Shown: one piece after another, positions 16,113-27,565 of the stretch
How the letters are laid out: every line of letters starts with the position of its first letter
Position numbering within the stretch: the stretch's first letter is position 1
Assembly: GCA_021824565.1 (NCBI GenBank)
Contig: JAKAKL010000107.1
Span: 1-39,570, forward strand
Length of the DNA: 39,570 bases
Source: Bacteroidota bacterium
GTDB lineage: Bacteria > Bacteroidota > Ignavibacteria > Ignavibacteriales > Ignavibacteriaceae
Direction: 5' to 3'
The notes under the pieces: model-generated
The model's input: only the letters and a program-made list of their open reading frames with translations
Told to the model about the DNA's origin: nothing
Databases searched by the model: none
Made by a program: the position numbers and the translations under genes

Positions 16113-16808
16113 ATGCCGCCGGACATACAAGAAAAAAAAGAAACCTTAAGAAGCATTCCGTTATTTTCAGAATTAAGCGTTGAACAGCTTAGGAAAATAA
16201 CGTCTGTTTCAAAAGTACTCGAGTTTAAGAAGAATGAAATTCTTTTTAACGACGGTGATATCTACACCGGCTTTTATATTATTCTAAAAGGTACTATAAA
16301 AGTTTTTAAGATTTCCACAGCAGGAAAAGAATCTGTGCTGCACATTATTAAGCCGCTAAAGACATTTGCAGACGTACCTTTGTTTGAAGGCGGGAATTTT
16401 CCCGCCGCAGCGCAGTCTTTAGAAGACAGCACCGCTATTTTTTTTCCGAAAGAAGAATTTCTAAAGATTATGAGCGAAGACAAAGACATAAGTATTAAAA
16501 TGCTCGCCGGCTTTGCTAAAAGACTTCGCTCTATGGTAAACAAAATTGAAGATTTCTCTTCAAAAGAAGTTATTAATCGTTTAGCAAAATATTTGTTGAA
16601 AGAAATTAAATCTAATAAAACCGATAAACTTCCCGAACCTCACATAAGACTTGATGTGCCAAAGTCTACAATTGCTTCCTATCTCGGCACTATTAACGAA
16701 ACTCTTTCCCGTACATTAAAAAAACTCCAGGACGATAAAATAATTAAAGTCTCTGGGAAAAAGATATTTATTATTAATGTTAAGCAGTTGAAAAAACTAG
16801 CTGAATAA
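16113..16808 (+). CDS. Crp/Fnr-family transcription regulator, DNR-like
   Basis: The 231-residue protein has a cyclic-nucleotide-binding fold at about residues 15-130 and a Crp-type winged helix at about 160-225. The recognition helix reads INETLSRTLKKL, with E196, S199 and R200 matching the E..SR pattern that reads TTGAT/TTGAC half-sites. There is not a single cysteine, so it is not an Fe-S FNR. The cAMP-contacting Arg-Ser is replaced by FPAAAQSLEDS, so cAMP is unlikely as ligand. This fits the heme/NO-sensing DNR group or an orphan Crp. It probably controls the operon beginning at 16900 through the palindrome at 16833-16844. Confidence 0.85.
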   Translation: MPPDIQEKKETLRSIPLFSELSVEQLRKITSVSKVLEFKKNEILFNDGDIYTGFYIILKGTIKVFKISTAGKESVLHIIKPLKTFADVPLFEGGNFPAAAQSLEDSTAIFFPKEEFLKIMSEDKDISIKMLAGFAKRLRSMVNKIEDFSSKEVINRLAKYLLKEIKSNKTDKLPEPHIRLDVPKSTIASYLGTINETLSRTLKKLQDDKIIKVSGKKIFIINVKQLKKLAE

Positions 16809-16831: not shown

Positions 16832-16845
16832 CTGACTTAAGTCAA
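16832..16845. promoter_or_regulatory. Candidate Crp/Fnr-type operator, CTGAC-TTAA-GTCAA
   Basis: TGACTTAAGTCA (16833-16844) is a perfect 12-bp palindrome and matches the FNR/DNR layout TTGAY-N4-RTCAA apart from the outermost left base. A TACAAT that could serve as a -10 element lies at 16863-16868. This would put the operator centre near -38 to -41, the usual class II activator position. The site is 56 bp upstream of the DUF2249 gene and directly follows the regulator gene. Confidence 0.7.
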
Positions 16846-16899
16846 AGGATTACGCTCAGACATACAATATTTTTTCGATAAAAAAGAAAGGAAATAATT

Positions 16900-17136
16900 A
16901 TGAGCGCTTTGATTAAAGAATTGGATATACGCCCGGTTGCTCCGCGTGAAAAACATCCTACTATTTTTGCAACATTTGATTCGCTGCAAAAAGACGAAAC
17001 ACTTCAGTTGATTAACGACCACGATCCTATGCCGCTTTATTATCAGATGCATGCTTTGAGAAACGAACAATTCCACTGGGATTATGTAGAAAGCGGTCCT
17101 GAAGTTTGGAAGGTAAATATTACTAAAACAATTTGA
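16900..17136 (+). CDS. DUF2249 single-domain protein
   Basis: The protein has 78 residues, all one DUF2249 domain: ELDIRPVAPREKHPTIFATF, then DHDPMPLYYQMHAL and FHWDYVESGPEVWKVNI. DUF2249 is a small SirA/TusA-like alpha-beta fold of unknown biochemistry, often encoded with DNR-type regulators and NO-related genes. An AAAGGAAA-type ribosome binding site precedes the ATG. It is the first gene after the palindromic operator and probably the first gene of the operon. Confidence 0.88.
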   Translation: MSALIKELDIRPVAPREKHPTIFATFDSLQKDETLQLINDHDPMPLYYQMHALRNEQFHWDYVESGPEVWKVNITKTI

Positions 17137-17157
17137 AATTAATTTGAAAGAAGAGCG

Positions 17158-17982
17158 ATGATTACAAAAGCTTTGAGGATTTCTAAAATGCTAAATGATT
17201 ATCCGCAGACTCTCGATGTACTTTTAGAAACAAGCCCGCATTTTAATAAACTTAAAAATAAAATTCTCAGGAAAACGCTGGCTTCAAGAGTAAACGTAGA
17301 ACAAGCCGCAGGTATTGCTGGAGTTGATCTAAACGCTCTTCTTTTCAAACTTAACAAATCTATAAATCCCGGTTTTGAATTGTTAAATCAGAATGCAGAG
17401 ACAAATATGAAAGTATCAGACGAAGTAAATGACCACTACGGCTTTATTGAAAATATCGACAACGACAAATTAATTAGCCTTGATGTTAGACCGATAATCG
17501 ACTCCGGGAAAGATCCTTTTCTCGAAATTATGACAAAGGTAAAATCATTAAAGGATGACGAAATCTTTTTGCTGATAAATTCCTTTGAGCCCATTCCGCT
17601 TTATTCCATGCTTGGCAAAAAAGGCTTTGAACATAAAACAACAAAAGAAGAAGAAGTTTATAAGATTTATTTTTATAAAAAAAGTGAAAATAATTTAAAT
17701 GATAAAGAAAATAATTCTTCAAAGCTTGCCGATGAGAACTTATATGATTACGATACCATCAAAGAGCTTGATGTGCGCGGCTTAGAACCGCCTGAACCAA
17801 TGGTAAAAGTTCTTGAAACGCTACAGTCGATTGATAATAAAACAATACTTGTTGTTCATCATCATCGTGAACCGCTTATGCTTTATCCAAAGCTTGAAGA
17901 AAGAGGATTCACTGCTGTTGCCAACAAGATTAAGGATGATTATTTCAAAATAATTATAACTAAGAAAGAGGAAGCTGCTTAG
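17158..17982 (+). CDS. DUF1858-DUF2249-DUF2249 three-domain protein
   Basis: The protein has 274 residues. Residues 1-65 resemble the DUF1858/ScdA N-terminal helical domain (KMLNDYPQTLDVLLETSPHF, TLASRVNVEQAAGIAGVDLN). A central DUF2249 copy starts at LDVRPIIDSGKDPF and a second at ELDVRGLEPPEPMVKVLETL, the latter with a histidine cluster VVHHHREPLM. DUF1858 domains occur with di-iron repair proteins (ScdA/Ric) and Fe-S enzymes, which suggests nitrosative or oxidative damage responses. The lead DUF2249 gene is 21 bp upstream and the next gene starts one base after this stop. Confidence 0.82.
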   Translation: MITKALRISKMLNDYPQTLDVLLETSPHFNKLKNKILRKTLASRVNVEQAAGIAGVDLNALLFKLNKSINPGFELLNQNAETNMKVSDEVNDHYGFIENIDNDKLISLDVRPIIDSGKDPFLEIMTKVKSLKDDEIFLLINSFEPIPLYSMLGKKGFEHKTTKEEEVYKIYFYKKSENNLNDKENNSSKLADENLYDYDTIKELDVRGLEPPEPMVKVLETLQSIDNKTILVVHHHREPLMLYPKLEERGFTAVANKIKDDYFKIIITKKEEAA

Positions 17983-17983
17983 T

Positions 17984-19255
17984 ATGCAGTCGGAAGCTCT
18001 TATATCGGCGTATGCGCCGCCATTTAAAATAGTGCTAAAATATTTTATTGCTGCAGTAATTGCATTTGTCCTTCTGAATTTTTTGCTTGTTGTAAATTAT
18101 GCCGATATAAACGGCTTCCATTTCCAGCCTAAGATATTGGCAATTACTCATATCGCAACTCTCGGCTGGATTACAATGTCTATCTTTGGCGCGATGTTTC
18201 AACTTGTGCCGGTAGTTCTTGAAGTAAAGCTTTACAGTGAAAAGCTTGCTGAAGTTCAATTCTGGATTTTTCTCACCGGCATAATAGGATTAGTATCTTG
18301 CTTTTGGAATTTTGACACCGGCATTCATCTCACTTATTCCGCTATTGCGCTTAACGCAGCTATTTTAATTTTTTCTTATAACATTATTATTACTATGACC
18401 AAAGTTAAAAAATGGAACATAACCGGATTATATCTGGCGGCATCTATTTTTTATCTTATTACAACAGGTATCGCCGGACTGCTCCTAAGTATAAACTTAG
18501 GATTTCCGTTTATTAACATTAGTCATCTTCTGTATTTAAATCTTCATGCGCACATTGCTCTTGTAGGATGGGTTTCGTTGGTCATTATGGGAGTTTCTTT
18601 TAAACTTATTCCTATGTTCAGTCTTTCGCATCATTATTCAAACAAAAGCGGAGTGGTTGCGTTTGTGCTGATAAATACCGGCTTGCTGGGCTTATCGACA
18701 GTCATGCATTATGAAAACACGACAATATTATTTTATGTGTTTGCTGTTATCACCGCGTTGGGGATTTTCTTTTTTCTCCATCAAATGTATCTCATCTTCA
18801 AAAACAGAATGCGCAAAAGAGCCGACATTGGAATTTTGTTCTCTAAAACATCGTACATATTGCTTGGGATTTCAGCTTTGTTTGGAATTGCAATTGCATG
18901 CACAAATATTTCTTATCAAATGAATGTAACTTTGATTTACGGCTACATAATTATTTTTGGATTTATCTCAATGATCATTGTCGGGCAGATGTACAAGATA
19001 ATGCCTTTCCTTGTGTGGTACCATAGATACAGCAGTAAAGCAGGCAGAGAGCCTGTTCCCATGTTAAAAGAAATGTTTTTAGAAAAGCCTGCCTACGCCG
19101 GTTATTATATTATGATCACCGCTTTAGCCGGAGCAATTCTCTCATTTGCTTTTCAAATTACAATATCATTGTTGTTCTCATTTGTGCTGATGTTCATTGG
19201 CTCTTTGATATTCTTATTTAATTTTACTTACATTCTTATAAAGGCAAAAAAATAA
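17984..19255 (+). CDS. Multi-pass membrane protein related to heme-copper oxidase subunit I / NnrS
   Basis: The 423-residue protein has about 12 predicted transmembrane helices and no signal peptide. Histidines occur in helix contexts seen in heme-copper oxidase or NnrS proteins: KILAITHIATLGWITMSIFG and LHAHIALVGWVSLVIMGVSF. I do not see the paired His plus Tyr set of a complete CuB site, so it may bind heme without being an oxidase, or handle NO. Its stop overlaps the ATG of the next gene by one base (ATAATGG). With the small membrane protein at 19564 it may form a two-subunit complex. Assignment to a fold is fair; the activity is unknown. Confidence 0.68.
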   Translation: MQSEALISAYAPPFKIVLKYFIAAVIAFVLLNFLLVVNYADINGFHFQPKILAITHIATLGWITMSIFGAMFQLVPVVLEVKLYSEKLAEVQFWIFLTGIIGLVSCFWNFDTGIHLTYSAIALNAAILIFSYNIIITMTKVKKWNITGLYLAASIFYLITTGIAGLLLSINLGFPFINISHLLYLNLHAHIALVGWVSLVIMGVSFKLIPMFSLSHHYSNKSGVVAFVLINTGLLGLSTVMHYENTTILFYVFAVITALGIFFFLHQMYLIFKNRMRKRADIGILFSKTSYILLGISALFGIAIACTNISYQMNVTLIYGYIIIFGFISMIIVGQMYKIMPFLVWYHRYSSKAGREPVPMLKEMFLEKPAYAGYYIMITALAGAILSFAFQITISLLFSFVLMFIGSLIFLFNFTYILIKAKK

Positions 19256-19551
19256 TGGCAGCTAAAGATGAAATAATGGAAGTGCTGAAAGGTGTTATTG
19301 ATCCTGAAATCGGATTGAACATTGTTGATCTCGGATTGGTTTACGATATTGAGACAAGCAGCAACGAAATTGTCGTAACGATGACACTAACAACGCCCGG
19401 ATGCCCGATGCACAGCAGTATTTCTTTGTGGACGGAAAACGTAATTAAAAAGTTGGAACCCGAAGCTTCGGTGAAAATTAATCTTGTGTGGGAGCCGAGA
19501 TGGACTCCTGCTTTGATGAATTCAGATGCGCGAAGAGAATTAGGTATCTAA
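19255..19551 (+). CDS. MIP18/SufT-type (DUF59) metal-sulfur cluster assembly factor
   Basis: The protein has 98 residues and covers the whole DUF59 domain. Motifs are VIDPEIGLNIVDLGLVYDIE, then VTMTLTTPGCPMHSSISLW with the conserved cysteine, and VKINLVWEPRWTPALMN. Members help mature Fe-S proteins (SufT, the MIP18/CIA2 relatives) or, as PaaD, assist an oxygenase. In this operon, between a heme-copper-like protein and a ferredoxin, Fe-S assembly or repair is the likely role. It overlaps the previous gene by one base, so the two are translationally coupled. Confidence 0.88.
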   Translation: MAAKDEIMEVLKGVIDPEIGLNIVDLGLVYDIETSSNEIVVTMTLTTPGCPMHSSISLWTENVIKKLEPEASVKINLVWEPRWTPALMNSDARRELGI

Positions 19552-19563
19552 AAAGGAGTAATT

Positions 19564-20019
19564 ATGTTTTCAACTGTTAGATATTTTATTAAGACAAGCA
19601 TAATTTTTTTACTTGTCGGAATTTTAACCGGGCTTTATATGTCGCTGACAAAACATTTCTCTATGGAAGGAATTTCTCCGGAACTAATTTCGGCACACAC
19701 TCATCTCATTTTAGTCGGCTCTGTAATGATGATGATAATGGGAGTGGCGTTGTGGTTTTTCCCGCGAGCTGAAAAGGATGATAAAAAATATAACCCGGAT
19801 TTAATACTAATTACTTATTGGACTATGACAATCTCCACTTCATTAAGATTTATCTTCCAGGTTTTAAGCACTTATGCAGATTCTCCTTTTGTAGAATACA
19901 CAATTTCCATTGCATCAATATTTCAGGTCATTGCTATAATTTTATTCTTTTACTCAATGTGGGGAAGAATCAGACCGGTTGGCAGCCAGTACCGCGAAGC
20001 TAAAGGAGAAAAATTTTAA
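19564..20019 (+). CDS. Small four-helix membrane protein, heme-copper oxidase N-terminal-like
   Basis: The protein has 151 residues with four predicted transmembrane helices. The stretch ISAHTHLILVGSVMMMIMGV followed by ALWFFPRAEKDD resembles the helix of cbb3/NorB-type subunits that carries a heme-ligand histidine, and the position after it where LWxxPR recurs. It is far too short to be a complete oxidase subunit and looks like a duplicated or split half of the fold. AAAGGAG lies a few bases before the ATG. Its stop overlaps the ferredoxin start by one base. It probably partners the larger membrane protein at 17984. Confidence 0.65.
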   Translation: MFSTVRYFIKTSIIFLLVGILTGLYMSLTKHFSMEGISPELISAHTHLILVGSVMMMIMGVALWFFPRAEKDDKKYNPDLILITYWTMTISTSLRFIFQVLSTYADSPFVEYTISIASIFQVIAIILFFYSMWGRIRPVGSQYREAKGEKF

Positions 20020-20288
20020 TGGCGCTCATTATCACTAATGACTGCATTAACTGCAATGCGTGTTTTATTGAATGCCCGGTAGAAGCCGTCTACAAACCTT
20101 CGGAGCAGAAATTAAGCGAGCAGGAGAAAAAAGAATTCTATATGTCGGAAGAACATTATTTCATAGATTTAAATTCATGCGACGAATGCACCGTTTTTAA
20201 TGTGCCGAGGTGCATCGCAATATGTCCGATGGACTCAATCAAAACAATGGAACAAATAAAAAAGATAGGAAAAGAAAATGTCATTTGA
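20019..20288 (+). CDS. 2x[4Fe-4S] ferredoxin
   Basis: The protein has 89 residues. The first cluster motif is CINCNACFIECP and the second CDECTVFNVPRCIAICP, in which the spacing between the second and third Cys is widened by an insert. A charged linker (EQKLSEQEKKEFYMSEEHYF) separates the two, as in the YfhL-like or alvin-type ferredoxins with long second clusters. It is a low-potential electron carrier, presumably feeding or receiving electrons for the membrane proteins or the DGC protein of this operon. The downstream gene begins 11 bp inside its 3' end. Confidence 0.88.
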   Translation: MALIITNDCINCNACFIECPVEAVYKPSEQKLSEQEKKEFYMSEEHYFIDLNSCDECTVFNVPRCIAICPMDSIKTMEQIKKIGKENVI

Positions 20289-20682
20289 TGAAGACGCTGA
20301 TAAATTAGATTATAATGAATTGCCGATTGTCTATTCTTGCTCGGGATGCAGCAATATAGCGCAGCTTGCTAATAATATCGCGGTAAAGATGGATAGGGAA
20401 GGAGTGGCTGAGATGTCATGTATCGCAGGGGTCGGCGGGCATGTAAAGCCTCTCGTTAAGAAAGCTAAATCCGGCAGACCTGTAATTGCAATTGACGGCT
20501 GCATTTTGCATTGTGCAAAAGCTTGCCTGGAAAATGAAGGCGTTAAACCGGACATTCACTACACCTTAACCGAATTCGGGTTAAAGAAAACTTATCATAC
20601 CGAATATTCAAACGACACGGTGGAAGAGATTTATTCTCACATCGTTTCCGAAGTAGATACAAAAATTGAAACTACTGCATAA
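20278..20682 (+). CDS. DGC-domain putative zinc-binding protein
   Basis: The protein has 134 residues and matches the DGC family (PF08859 type). It has C21-S-G-C24 near the N-terminus, C48 in EMSCIAGVGG, and the naming motif D73-G-C75 in AIDGCILHCAKACLE with C79 and C83. The cysteine set suggests binding of zinc or another metal; the biological role is not known for the family. AGGAAAAGAAA precedes the ATG and the start is inside the ferredoxin gene, so the two are co-translated. It is the last gene of the 16900-20682 operon; I see no strong terminator after it. Confidence 0.82.
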   Translation: MSFDEDADKLDYNELPIVYSCSGCSNIAQLANNIAVKMDREGVAEMSCIAGVGGHVKPLVKKAKSGRPVIAIDGCILHCAKACLENEGVKPDIHYTLTEFGLKKTYHTEYSNDTVEEIYSHIVSEVDTKIETTA

Positions 20683-21094: not shown

Positions 21095-21318
21095 TGTGGG
21101 CTTTTACGATTTATTTTTTCCTTACTTATTTCTATTTGCGAAGTATTTTTAAAGGGAGGCAAGTAAACATTATTAAAATTCCGGGATCATTTACATTTCA
21201 ATTTTGTATCTTTATTCATATAAAGAAGTCCTCTTCTTCATATTTCATTTCCTACAATACCAATCGCCCTTCTTTTGGAATTTTCCAATTTGTAAAACTT
21301 ATAATATGTGACAATCAA

Positions 21319-21666
21319 TCACATCAGAAAGCCGTAAAACATTGTAGGAGTGACGAATGCTCACATCGGAAAGCCGTAAAACATTGTAGGAGTGACGAAT
21401 AATCACATCGGAAAGGCGTAGAACATTGTAGGAGTGACGAATAATCACATCGGAAAGCCGTAAAATACCGTAGGAGTGATGAATGCTCACATCGGAAAGC
21501 CGTAAAACATTGTAGGAGTGACGAATGGTCACATCGGAAAGGCGTAAGACTTTGTAGGAATGACGAATGGTCACATCAGAAAGGTGTAAATGATTGTAGG
21601 AATGACGATGAAATACATCGGAAGGGCGTAAAACATTGTAGGAGTGACGGACACTCACATCGGAAA
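21319..21666. repeat. Tandem array, exact 42-bp period (2 x 21), eight full copies plus a partial one (array 2)
   Basis: Units start at 21319, 21361, 21403, 21445, 21487, 21529, 21571, 21613 and 21655, each exactly 42 bp apart with no insertion or deletion. The first half reads TCACATCGGAAAGCCGTAAA and the second ACATTGTAGGAGTGACGAAT. The halves share GGANNGNCGNA 21 bp apart, so the unit is itself a diverged 21-bp duplication. Most copies differ at a few bases, chiefly at the two or three bases between units. The minus-strand frame across it (repeated RHSYNVLRLSDV) stays open because 42 is divisible by three; I do not regard it as a gene. Confidence 0.92.
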
Positions 21667-25139: not shown

Positions 25140-26345
25140 TTGAGCATAGTAGTTCAGAAATACGGCGGCAGCAGCGTTGCCGATGTAGATAAAATAAAAG
25201 CAATCGCCAAGAAAATTTGCGAGGTAAAGAAATCAGGCGACGATATTGTTGTTGTTGTATCTGCGATGGGAAAGACGACTGACTCATTAATTGAGCTTGC
25301 AAAATCTATTTCGCACGATCCGCAAAAACGCGAAATGGACATGCTTCTAAGTACAGGAGAGAGAATTACAATGTCTCTTCTATGTATAGCTCTGAATGAA
25401 TTAGGAATTGATTCAATTTCATTAACCGGATCGCAGGCTGGAATTATTACCAATGACCGTCATAACGATGCAAGAGTAATTGAGGTAAGACCGTTCAGAG
25501 TTTTAGATGAGCTTGCAAATGATAAAGTAGTTGTTGTTGGAGGATTCCAGGGAGTAAGCTACAAGAGAGATATTACGACTTTAGGCAGAGGCGGTTCGGA
25601 TACTTCTGCAGTTGCGCTGGCTGCCGGATTAAGCGCGGAAAGATGTGAGATCTATTCCGATGTGGACGGCGTTTATTCTGCCGATCCAGGCGTTGTAAAA
25701 GGTTCAATTCATCTGCCGGTGCTTTCTTACGAGATAATGCAGGAGATGAGCGAAGCCGGCGCTAAGGTTTTGAATGCTCAGGCGGTTCAGTTCGCAAAAG
25801 AAGCTAAGATAGCAATATACGCTAGAAAATCTTTTGGAGGAGAAAAGGAAACAATAGTAAGGCAAATGCCAGCGGGACTTTCAAAAGGAATTAAAGCAGT
25901 TGTTCATGAAAACGAAATCATCAGAGTGATATTATACGGGGGCAATGCTCAAAATAATCTTAATTCTTTGCTCGAATACCTAGAAGGAAAACAAATTAAA
26001 CTGAAGGAGCTAAACTACAGCTTAAATAATGATTCTTCGAGGTGTTCATTCCTAATTTCAGGCAAGAATATTCTAAACTGGAATACAATTAAAGAAGAAT
26101 TACTGATGCGCTACGGCAGTGAAATAAAAATAGAGCACGGCGTCGGAGCTGTCTCCTTAATTGGAGATGGAATTAATAGCGATAATTTTATTTTAAATGA
26201 GTCGATAAAAATACTTGAAAAATATTCAGTGAAAATATTCGGAGTTTCTATAACATCGTTTAGGATAACATTCCTATTATCTAACGATAAAGTAAAAGAG
26301 AGTGCTGCGATGCTTCACAAAAAATGGATCGAAGAAATTTCTTAA
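25140..26345 (+). CDS. Aspartate kinase, first of two tandem copies
   Basis: The 401-residue enzyme starts at a TTG (25140), 12 bp after dapH; the next residues [12 protein letters not shown] are the universal aspartokinase N-terminus, so the start is secure. Catalytic landmarks are [34 protein letters not shown] and [14 protein letters not shown]. Two ACT domains occupy the last 150 or so residues. Aspartokinase makes aspartyl phosphate, the entry to lysine, threonine, methionine and DAP. The C-terminal ACT half is clearly diverged from that of the second copy, which suggests different feedback ligands. Confidence 0.93.
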
Positions 26346-26374
26346 ATTACTCAAAGGAAAAACTAAAAAGGAAA

Positions 26375-27565
26375 ATGAAAAACTTAATTGTCCAGAAATA
26401 CGGAGGGAGTTCGGTAGCTGATTCGGAAAAGCTAAAGAACGTGGCAAAGAAAATTGCAGCAAGAATTAAAAAGAACAATAAGCTTGTTGTTGTGGTTTCT
26501 GCTATGGGAAAGACAACGGATAACCTGATAAAACTTTCCAAAGAGATTTCAAGCAACCCTGTGCCGAGAGAGCTTGATATGCTGCTAACAACAGGTGAGC
26601 AGGTTTCAGCTTCATTGCTTGCAATAGCTCTTAATGAAATAGGTATAAAGAGTAAATCTTTGAATGCTTTTCAAGCAGAGATATTAACTACAGGAGATTT
26701 TAATCAAGCGCGAATAAAAAATCTTAAGGTGAAAAAGATAAAAGCGCTTCTTAAAGATTTTGATGCTATCATTGTAACAGGCTTCCAGGGAATTACAGAG
26801 GAAGGCGAGATAACAACACTTGGAAGAGGCGGTTCGGATACTTCCGCTGTTGCGCTTGCAGCGGCATTAAGCGCAAAGTGCGAAATATACAGCGACGTTG
26901 CCGGAATATATACAACCGATCCAAGGCTTCATCCGGCGGCGAAAAAATTAAAGAATGTTACTTACGATGAAATGCTTGAGATGTCGAGCCTTGGAGCAAA
27001 AGTACTCCACAGCAGATCGGTAGAAATAGCAAAGAAATTTGGAATAACAATTTATTGTGGTTCAACATTTTCAGACGAGGAAGGAAGTTATGTTATGAAA
27101 AAAAATATTGAGCAGCCGGTTGTTACAGGCTTAAGCGTAATGGATAATCAAACACAGGTAACTTTATCAAATCTGCCGCTGGATTATACTTTAGTCCATC
27201 AGATATTTGAGAAGGTAGCTAAAGAAGGTTTGAACGTTGATATGATCTCGGTTATAAGCAACGGAGGTTTAAATATTTCCTTTACGGTTATTGAGGACAA
27301 AAAGTCGCATATATCTAAAGCGCTTTCACAAATTCTTAAAGGGATGAAAGGATTGAACATTGATTACAGTTCAGGCTATTCAAAAATTTCTATTGTGGGG
27401 ATCGGCATGAAATCGAGCAGCGGTGTTGCTTCGAAATATTTTATGGCGCTTGAAGGAATCCCTGTAAAGCTTGTAACCACATCAGAAATTAAAATCTCTT
27501 GTCTTGTCGAAGAAAAATTTAAAGACAAAGCTGTTAAAGCATTAGTAGCTGCTTTTGAATTATAA
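26375..27565 (+). CDS. Aspartate kinase, second tandem copy
   Basis: I start at the ATG at 26375, 29 bp after the first aspartokinase and preceded by AAAAAGGAAA; it gives [16 protein letters not shown], aligned with the family N-terminus. The upstream in-frame ATG at 26324 would overlap the first copy and add a non-homologous tail. The product is 396 residues. It has [58 protein letters not shown] and two ACT domains ending in KLVTTSEIKISCLVEEKF, the lysine- or threonine-binding pattern of LysC. The close similarity of the catalytic halves points to an old tandem duplication. Confidence 0.93.
   Translation: MKNLIVQKYGGSSVADSEKLKNVAKKIAARIKKNNKLVVVVSAMGKTTDNLIKLSKEISSNPVPRELDMLLTTGEQVSASLLAIALNEIGIKSKSLNAFQAEILTTGDFNQARIKNLKVKKIKALLKDFDAIIVTGFQGITEEGEITTLGRGGSDTSAVALAAALSAKCEIYSDVAGIYTTDPRLHPAAKKLKNVTYDEMLEMSSLGAKVLHSRSVEIAKKFGITIYCGSTFSDEEGSYVMKKNIEQPVVTGLSVMDNQTQVTLSNLPLDYTLVHQIFEKVAKEGLNVDMISVISNGGLNISFTVIEDKKSHISKALSQILKGMKGLNIDYSSGYSKISIVGIGMKSSSGVASKYFMALEGIPVKLVTTSEIKISCLVEEKFKDKAVKALVAAFEL

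Follow-up and report, generated by a model that had tools for sequence, protein, structure and literature searches.

We identified, in a contig of an Ignavibacteriaceae bacterium (Bacteroidota; NCBI GenBank assembly GCA_021824565.1, contig JAKAKL010000107.1), an operon of seven genes with its own Crp/Fnr-family regulator that we judge, with slightly better than even confidence, to be a denitrification-associated module protecting or repairing enzymes hit by nitric oxide (NO). Its putative core comprises a DrpA-like protein, a DrpB-like protein, a 12-helix membrane protein of heme-copper oxidase (HCO) homology, and a DUF59 protein. The contig, referred to below as the window, was analysed over its full 39570 bases and is one of 148 in a genome of 4.59 Mb. 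Comparisons at the sequence level establish the gene order, its conservation across phyla, and its association with an FNR-type regulator and operator; they also establish that relatives carry the same operator ahead of nor and nos units, and that a heme-copper active site is lacking. Most of the parts are known singly, their linkage and the exact operator being the useful additions. The features concerned are as follows.

16113..16808, + strand: Crp/Fnr-family regulator, 231 aa (Pfam cNMP_binding 3e-20, HTH_Crp_2 1.6e-15)
16833..16844, no strand: operator TGACTTAAGTCA, core of cTGACTTAAGTCAa, ending 55 bases short of the first ATG
16900..17136, + strand: DrpA-like protein, single DUF2249, 78 aa (PF10006 2.5e-30)
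17158..17982, + strand: DrpB-like protein, DUF1858-DUF2249-DUF2249, 274 aa (domain profiles, Thermus identity)
17984..19255, + strand: 12-helix HCO homologue, COX1-like, 423 aa (predicted structure, fold match)
19255..19551, + strand: DUF59 / FeS_assembly_P protein, 98 aa (PF01883 9.2e-19)
19564..20019, + strand: 4-helix single-unit HCO homologue, 151 aa (PF00115 6.2e-11)
20019..20288, + strand: two-[4Fe-4S] ferredoxin, YfhL/FdxA-like, 89 aa (PF13237 1.7e-9)
20278..20682, + strand: DGC-domain protein, 134 aa (PF08859 9.6e-38)

The operon is real and tightly packed, and carries its own regulator: the seven genes span 16900-20682 on one strand, in the order and with the overlaps (at 19255, 20019 and 20278-20288, all exact) that the first-pass annotation of this stretch had described. 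Among its smaller products, the ferredoxin scored 5.7e-14 against NF033683, below the family cut-off, and each of its eight cluster cysteines is conserved in at least 6 of 7 sequences; Cys50 of the DUF59 protein is one of the residues conserved in at least 18 of 19 sequences. A DGC homologue also lies downstream of a qNOR gene in one relative (G224). The ScdA_N plus hemerythrin architecture of RIC/ScdA/YtfE was found by Pfam in none of the eight window proteins. Scans for Sigma-70 promoters (11 versus a shuffle mean of 14.1) and terminators (4 versus 2.7) remained near shuffle level.

Gene-neighbourhood conservation had been proposed as a check on the operon, and bears it out both within the phylum and across phyla. 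Among 296 genomes sampled from the phylum, a homologue of the 12-helix gene occurred in 19, the present genome included, and tblastn detected DrpB, the 12-helix protein and DUF59 together in each of the 18 others. In a larger set, comprising the best 80 of 406 retrieved relatives from a species-wide contig set (four of the 80 contigs, equal in length to contigs already analysed, were taken as identical to them), these three genes were contiguous and co-oriented in 75 of the 80 loci, and in three of the five remaining loci the contig ends at the 12-helix gene. DrpB was present in all 80 loci, DUF59 in 76, DrpA in 47, the 4-helix gene in 25 and RIC in 21. Beyond the phylum, where plasmid records were compared and blastp identities were computed against the eight window proteins only, Ensifer canadensis possesses a cluster reading norCBQD, hemN, DUF2249, 12-helix homologue (25% identity), DUF2249-DUF2249, DUF59, nnrS, nirK and Crp/Fnr. 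In Natrinema, DUF2249 and ric occur close to a 12-helix homologue (25%), and an Aliarcobacter plasmid carries an open reading frame (ORF) that resembles the C-terminal part of DrpB (36% identity over 75 aa), together with a 12-helix homologue (36%) and DUF59. Database tblastn searches recovered relatives from Thermus, Ensifer and Aliarcobacter at E-values of 1e-28 to 1e-17, the E. canadensis record itself not being among the 30 matches listed.

The first two genes are not the undescribed parts they had been taken for in the first-pass annotation, which held the operon to be made mostly of unknown components: they match DrpA and DrpB of Thermus thermophilus, regulators of nitrate respiration studied by knock-out (PMC6282519; cluster reviewed in PMC7694296). 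The DrpA-like protein shares 57% identity over 70 aa with a DUF2249 protein encoded behind nar in T. thermophilus JL-18, and the DrpB-like protein 32% over 274 columns with its JL-18 counterpart, both with the same domain architectures and in the same order. According to the available portions of the primary report, DrpA and DrpB depend on DnrT; DrpA is periplasmic, and DrpB soluble and partly membrane-bound; and the drpAB message, called bicistronic, with reverse transcription PCR described across drpA-drpB and not beyond, is treated as a nitrate-sensing operon (PMC6282519). Nitrate no longer affects nar and dnr expression once drpA or drpB is knocked out, and the drpA drpB double mutant makes a nitrate reductase that is poorly active (PMC6282519), the latter suiting a role in maturation or repair. 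On the JL-18 plasmid the last base of drpB is the first base of the next gene's start, which makes it likely, from sequence, that the Thermus drp operon extends past drpAB. The order in JL-18 is narGH-narI, transporter, DUF2249, DrpB-like, 4-helix homologue (144 aa, 25% identical), protoglobin-domain gene, 12-helix homologue (33% identical) and DUF59, and a plasmid of strain TF28 carries the same six genes from DUF2249 to DUF59. Both Thermus runs therefore continue, as the present operon does, with 4-helix, 12-helix and DUF59 homologues; they differ from it in possessing the protoglobin gene (L164 18227-19066 in JL-18, between the 4-helix and 12-helix homologues, with a 99%-identical counterpart in TF28) and in lacking ferredoxin and DGC. 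A further difference is that no narG-sized gene was found in the window, where the nar search was made and the longest ORF is 671 aa. With no narG beside the operon, its proteins are called Drp-like here and are not filed as a nitrate sensor.

The regulator (16113-16808) lacks cysteine altogether and carries the recognition helix N-E-T-L-S-R, of E-x-x-S-R type, much as first noted, the gene itself ending before the interval then given for it. Together with its cNMP and Crp HTH domains, this helix places it in the FNR type. One histidine is aligned in 9 of 9 regulator sequences, including a paralogue from the same genome, and two of the eight other aligned sequences contain one cysteine. CooA-like heme ligation, prompted by this aligned His77, was dropped, the numbering being its only support.

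Downstream of the regulator, TGACTTAAGTCA forms a perfect palindrome at 16833-16844, as previously noted, and occurs once in the whole window. All 20 loci whose regulator is at least 50% identical carry an exact copy upstream of drpA, whereas the palindrome is absent from 9 of 9 loci with a more distant regulator (one of which, L110, has a one-mismatch copy) and from 51 of 51 without a regulator, 45 of which have more than 300 bases upstream; no copy was found anywhere in these 60 other fetched stretches. In the window, and in all 7 relatives that possess the regulator, an exact copy stands between that gene and drpA; three of the seven are among the 20 loci. Alignment of the operator-bearing loci revealed that all 12 positions and the following A are invariant, and that conservation extends to some flanking columns, among them the C just ahead of the site (0.95) and an A-rich block lying 12-15 bases ahead of it. 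Across the present genome and seven relatives the palindrome occurred at 30 sites, compared with 3 for a reversed control. In one relative (G294, L071-L075), 12 of 13 copies fall within long ORFs on one strand with near-identical flanks, 11 of them within ~80 kb, and likely represent a repeated protein segment rather than operators. Setting these 12 aside leaves 18 operators, eight before drpA and ten starting 57-223 bp from an ORF (the distances of 57 and 104 bp were computed by hand).

The genes and units behind these further operators include qNOR-holding units in G224 and G074 and a nos unit in G132, as well as a 4-helix gene (G074), a DUF6448-cupin-DGC unit (G124, where the site also falls within an overlapping mechanical ORF), a DUF1858-like ORF (G224), and, in G124 and G132, a DUF4149-like gene just under the Pfam cut-off. 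In the present genome such operators precede a ferredoxin and a unit of NADH-dehydrogenase-like, DUF2249 and aconitase genes adjoining a second Crp paralogue. That paralogue, 52% identical to the regulator, and the two further operators lie on another contig (L070, G000:C125, 1998-9278), in a run that also includes, by eye, carboxymuconolactone-like, DUF488-like, ferredoxin and cupin genes; its NADH-dehydrogenase-like gene is in two ORFs (66 + 402 aa), which in a relative form a single 463-aa ORF.

The relaxed pattern TTGAC-N4-GTCA was not enriched in the present genome (6 matches versus 15 for the reversed control), so that the signal is carried only by the exact 12-mer. The site reads cTGAC-TTAA-GTCAa; in 19 of the 20 loci a single C-for-T mismatch separates it from the HcpR1-type TTGAC-N4-GTCAA, and the L087 site has a perfect TTGAC half. 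As far as the accessible text of the regulon study goes, HcpR1 sites read wyTTGAC-N4-GTCAArw and DNR-type sites TTGAT-N4-ATCAA, and HcpR1 targets include ferredoxin, ndh, nrf and norB, a content that resembles the present predicted regulon in ferredoxin, ndh and norB (PMC1274295). On these motifs a DNR box was rejected, the site being closer to the HcpR1 type (PMC1274295): the pairing of an FNR/DNR-like regulator with that palindrome stands, and the DNR-type reading of the site does not. The exact operator allows NO-linked regulons to be predicted in these Ignavibacteria-like bacteria.

The intimacy of regulator and operon bears on a different explanation, namely that the Drp proteins and the putative membrane heme protein together detect N-oxides or the redox state and adjust the Crp/Fnr regulator, as has been proposed for DrpA/DrpB with DnrS/DnrT in Thermus. 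All 20 operator-bearing loci indeed have the regulator upstream in the same orientation, no more than 0.4 kb away in 18 of them and 1.4 and 5.6 kb away in the other two, and both the nitrate-independent expression in the Thermus knock-outs and the locations of DrpA and DrpB would accord with sensing (PMC6282519). Against this, 60 of the 80 loci retain the 12-helix gene and have no close regulator upstream of it (9 have a distant one and 51 none, some contigs being truncated), and the DUF59 protein, RIC fusion and ferredoxin fit work on metal clusters better; the poorly active nitrate reductase of the double mutant suits maturation or repair (PMC6282519). From this analysis we consider a signalling module rather unlikely.

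Several lines of evidence place the module in the context of NO and denitrification. NosZ was found in 17 of the 19 genomes with the 12-helix gene compared with 82 of 277 without it (Fisher p 2.7e-7, a value that overstates independence because the genomes are related). Of the same 19, four possess a qNOR-type gene, seven NrfA, and three NirK over threshold (G263, G124, G281), while in G033 a weaker NirK-like gene, below threshold, adjoins the module; NirS gave no match in the 19 genomes, nor in any control genome, and is hence uninformative. DrpA is fused to RIC, an Fe-S repair protein, in 8 of 18 neighbourhoods (one Pfam-confirmed), with a separate RIC nearby in four others. The names NosZ, qNOR, RIC, Rrf2, NosD and NosL were profile-confirmed on one representative each, two for RIC. 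From the parts of the literature available, Haloferax mediterranei induces four DUF2249 genes when denitrifying (PMC11218638), and in Bradyrhizobium a DUF1858 gene and hemN2 are under NnrR dependence (PMC6710368); we found no publication treating DUF2249 together with DUF59 in a search that left subscription journals mostly outside. Together with the operators before nor and nos units and the nar and nor-nir neighbourhoods, these findings support well, by comparative genomics, the link to NO that had been suggested for a membrane module. The present genome itself returned no match for NosZ, qNOR, NirK, NrfA or cNOR, and possesses one RIC and one ordinary HCO, aa3-like as judged by eye from COX2- and COX3-like neighbours. 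The lack of matches there to the denitrification enzymes tested is easier to reconcile with protection than with respiration.

Control by oxygen also operates through FNR-like boxes, and the module might instead transfer electrons at low oxygen with no specific role in NO, its link to denitrification being a by-product of an anaerobic lifestyle. NADH-dehydrogenase-like and cytochrome c-like genes adjoining operator copies would fit such a function; the fusion to and clustering with RIC do not, nor do the positions within nar or nor-nir clusters of two other phyla and close to ric in a haloarchaeon, and we regard this explanation as highly improbable.

The AlphaFold model of the 12-helix protein comprises 12 long helices, as anticipated (predicted local distance difference test, pLDDT, 94.8; predicted template modelling score, pTM, 0.94), and matches cbb3 CcoN with a Z-score of 38.7 (root-mean-square deviation 2.6, 391 residues aligned) and cNOR with a Z-score of 36.2. 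Heme-copper oxygen and NO reductases have six metal-binding histidines, including the CuB/FeB ligands. In the 12-helix protein only two histidines, His56 in helix 2 and His188 in helix 6, are shared by all 76 sequences aligned, His181, His190 and His216 being found in 67, 66 and 64 of them, respectively; neither a CuB/FeB ligand set nor a conserved third-unit histidine is present in this alignment, and no conserved histidine occupies the canonical helix-7 and helix-10 ligand positions. His56 and His188 are retained in the Thermus, Ensifer, Aliarcobacter and Natrinema homologues, and His190 is not. The protein thus shares the whole-chain fold of CcoN and NorB while missing their active-site histidines, and since this catalytic set is missing, a canonical oxidase or NO reductase was rejected. 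The earlier description as heme-copper-like holds for the fold, the heme-copper active site being absent.

These data also weigh on the possibility that the 12-helix and 4-helix proteins constitute a divergent NO reductase fed by the ferredoxin. The fold agrees with it; 15 of the 19 genomes with the 12-helix gene show no cNOR or qNOR match (NO reductases distant from cNOR may escape), and besides the aa3-like oxidase the present genome has no other PF00115 HCO-type candidate. Given the two invariant histidines and the coexistence of the 12-helix gene with qNOR in the other 4 of 19 genomes, it appears very unlikely, and that the module is not a respiratory NO or O2 reductase is the best explanation.

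The closest named relatives of the 12-helix protein (73-76% identity) come from metagenome-assembled genomes labelled Bacteroidetes, several of the next bearing the label Ignavibacteria. Its Thermus, Ensifer and Aliarcobacter homologues matched no Pfam family at E 0.01. NnrS is also a 12-helix membrane protein, one that carries heme. It belongs to NO regulons in the regulon study cited above, as far as its text was available (PMC1274295). In Ensifer, a gene of the NnrS family occurs separately in the vicinity of the module. Membership of NnrS was rejected for the 423-aa protein (no PF05940 match at E 1) and for the 151-aa protein (17.4 bits versus a cut-off of 28).

The model of the 4-helix protein shows the expected four long helices (pLDDT 81.4). 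The model (VIA) matches the last four helices of COX1/qNOR with Z-scores of ~14-15, to be read against values of up to ~13 that can arise by chance between helical bundles, and Foldseek returned no match below E 0.001. Both residues of its His45-x-His47 motif are invariant in 24 of 24 sequences. Lower matches include MAPEG proteins and, within the chance range, styrene oxide isomerase (8pnu, Z 11.3), a 4-helix heme enzyme that offers a structural lead for heme binding. Pei et al. in 2014 reportedly named 4-helix single-unit and 12-helix three-unit HCO homologues, linked them to denitrification, and are said to have found two conserved histidines in the 12-helix type. By that definition (HCO-like fold, 4 or 12 helices, reduced histidine set), and on the predicted models, both membrane proteins appear to have an HCO fold without the active site and fit this homology class, in type, histidines and denitrification context alike, the fold match of the 4-helix protein being the weaker. 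To our knowledge, that work included neither the grouping with DrpB and DUF59, nor the operator, nor the ferredoxin and DGC additions. An association with the HCO superfamily is attributed to Pei et al. 2014 in the available part of a later study (PMC11218638). In two Bacteroidota loci (L031:10464-11654 and L030:6756), a ~398-aa multi-helix HCO-like protein with a HAHSH motif, judged by eye (family f34, with matches in 6 of 80 loci), replaces the 4-helix gene behind DUF59.

Taken together, we favour protection or repair on the strength of the DUF59 and ferredoxin partners, the RIC fusion, the aconitase and NADH-dehydrogenase-like gene behind the same operator, and the retention of the operon in a genome that gave no match to the denitrification enzymes tested. 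The cysteine-free regulator would respond to NO or another N-oxide and activate the operon through cTGACTTAAGTCAa. In the 12-helix protein, His56 and His188 may together ligate one heme b; the 4-helix protein, perhaps as an oligomer, may bind heme through His45-x-His47. The ferredoxin would supply electrons, and the Drp, DUF59 and DGC proteins would cooperate with the membrane proteins, such that iron-sulfur and heme enzymes hit by NO might be protected or repaired, the same job as that of RIC/YtfE, the fusion partner of DrpA in other Bacteroidota.

A number of observations weigh against protection or repair. The ferredoxin (14 of 80 loci), DGC (3) and 4-helix (25) genes fall outside the universal core; NosZ, NOR or RIC turned up in no more than 28 of the 80 fetched stretches (22 of the 44 that measure at least 15 kb); the NosZ association is partly due to genome relatedness; and the TF28 run does not lie directly behind nar. 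Furthermore, the altered nar transcription and nitrate reductase activity of the Thermus drpAB mutants, as given in the available text, fit a sensor equally (PMC6282519).

More specifically, and as a tentative proposal that we hold plausible but short of even confidence, DrpB, the 12-helix heme protein and DUF59 may assemble into a single conserved complex bound to the membrane, which occurs in Bacteroidota, Deinococcota, Alphaproteobacteria and (partially) Campylobacterota and would repair or remetallate iron-sulfur and heme enzymes damaged by NO. On that reading, the Thermus drp operon would comprise six genes, not two, and the nitrate sensor phenotype of its drpAB mutants would arise secondarily. 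Protection of iron-sulfur enzymes from NO is known mainly through RIC/YtfE, Hcp and flavohemoglobin; if such a complex exists, RIC-type repair would gain a membrane partner, and a published nitrate-sensing pair a new reading.

Elsewhere in the window, a 42-bp unit (GTGACGAATAATCACATCGG...) is repeated 8.5 times in tandem, with 83% matches, behind the operon at 21308-21666, in a stretch without a clear gene. Also present, judging translations by eye, is a tandem pair of aspartate-kinase-like genes at 25140-27565, following dapA- and dapB-like genes.

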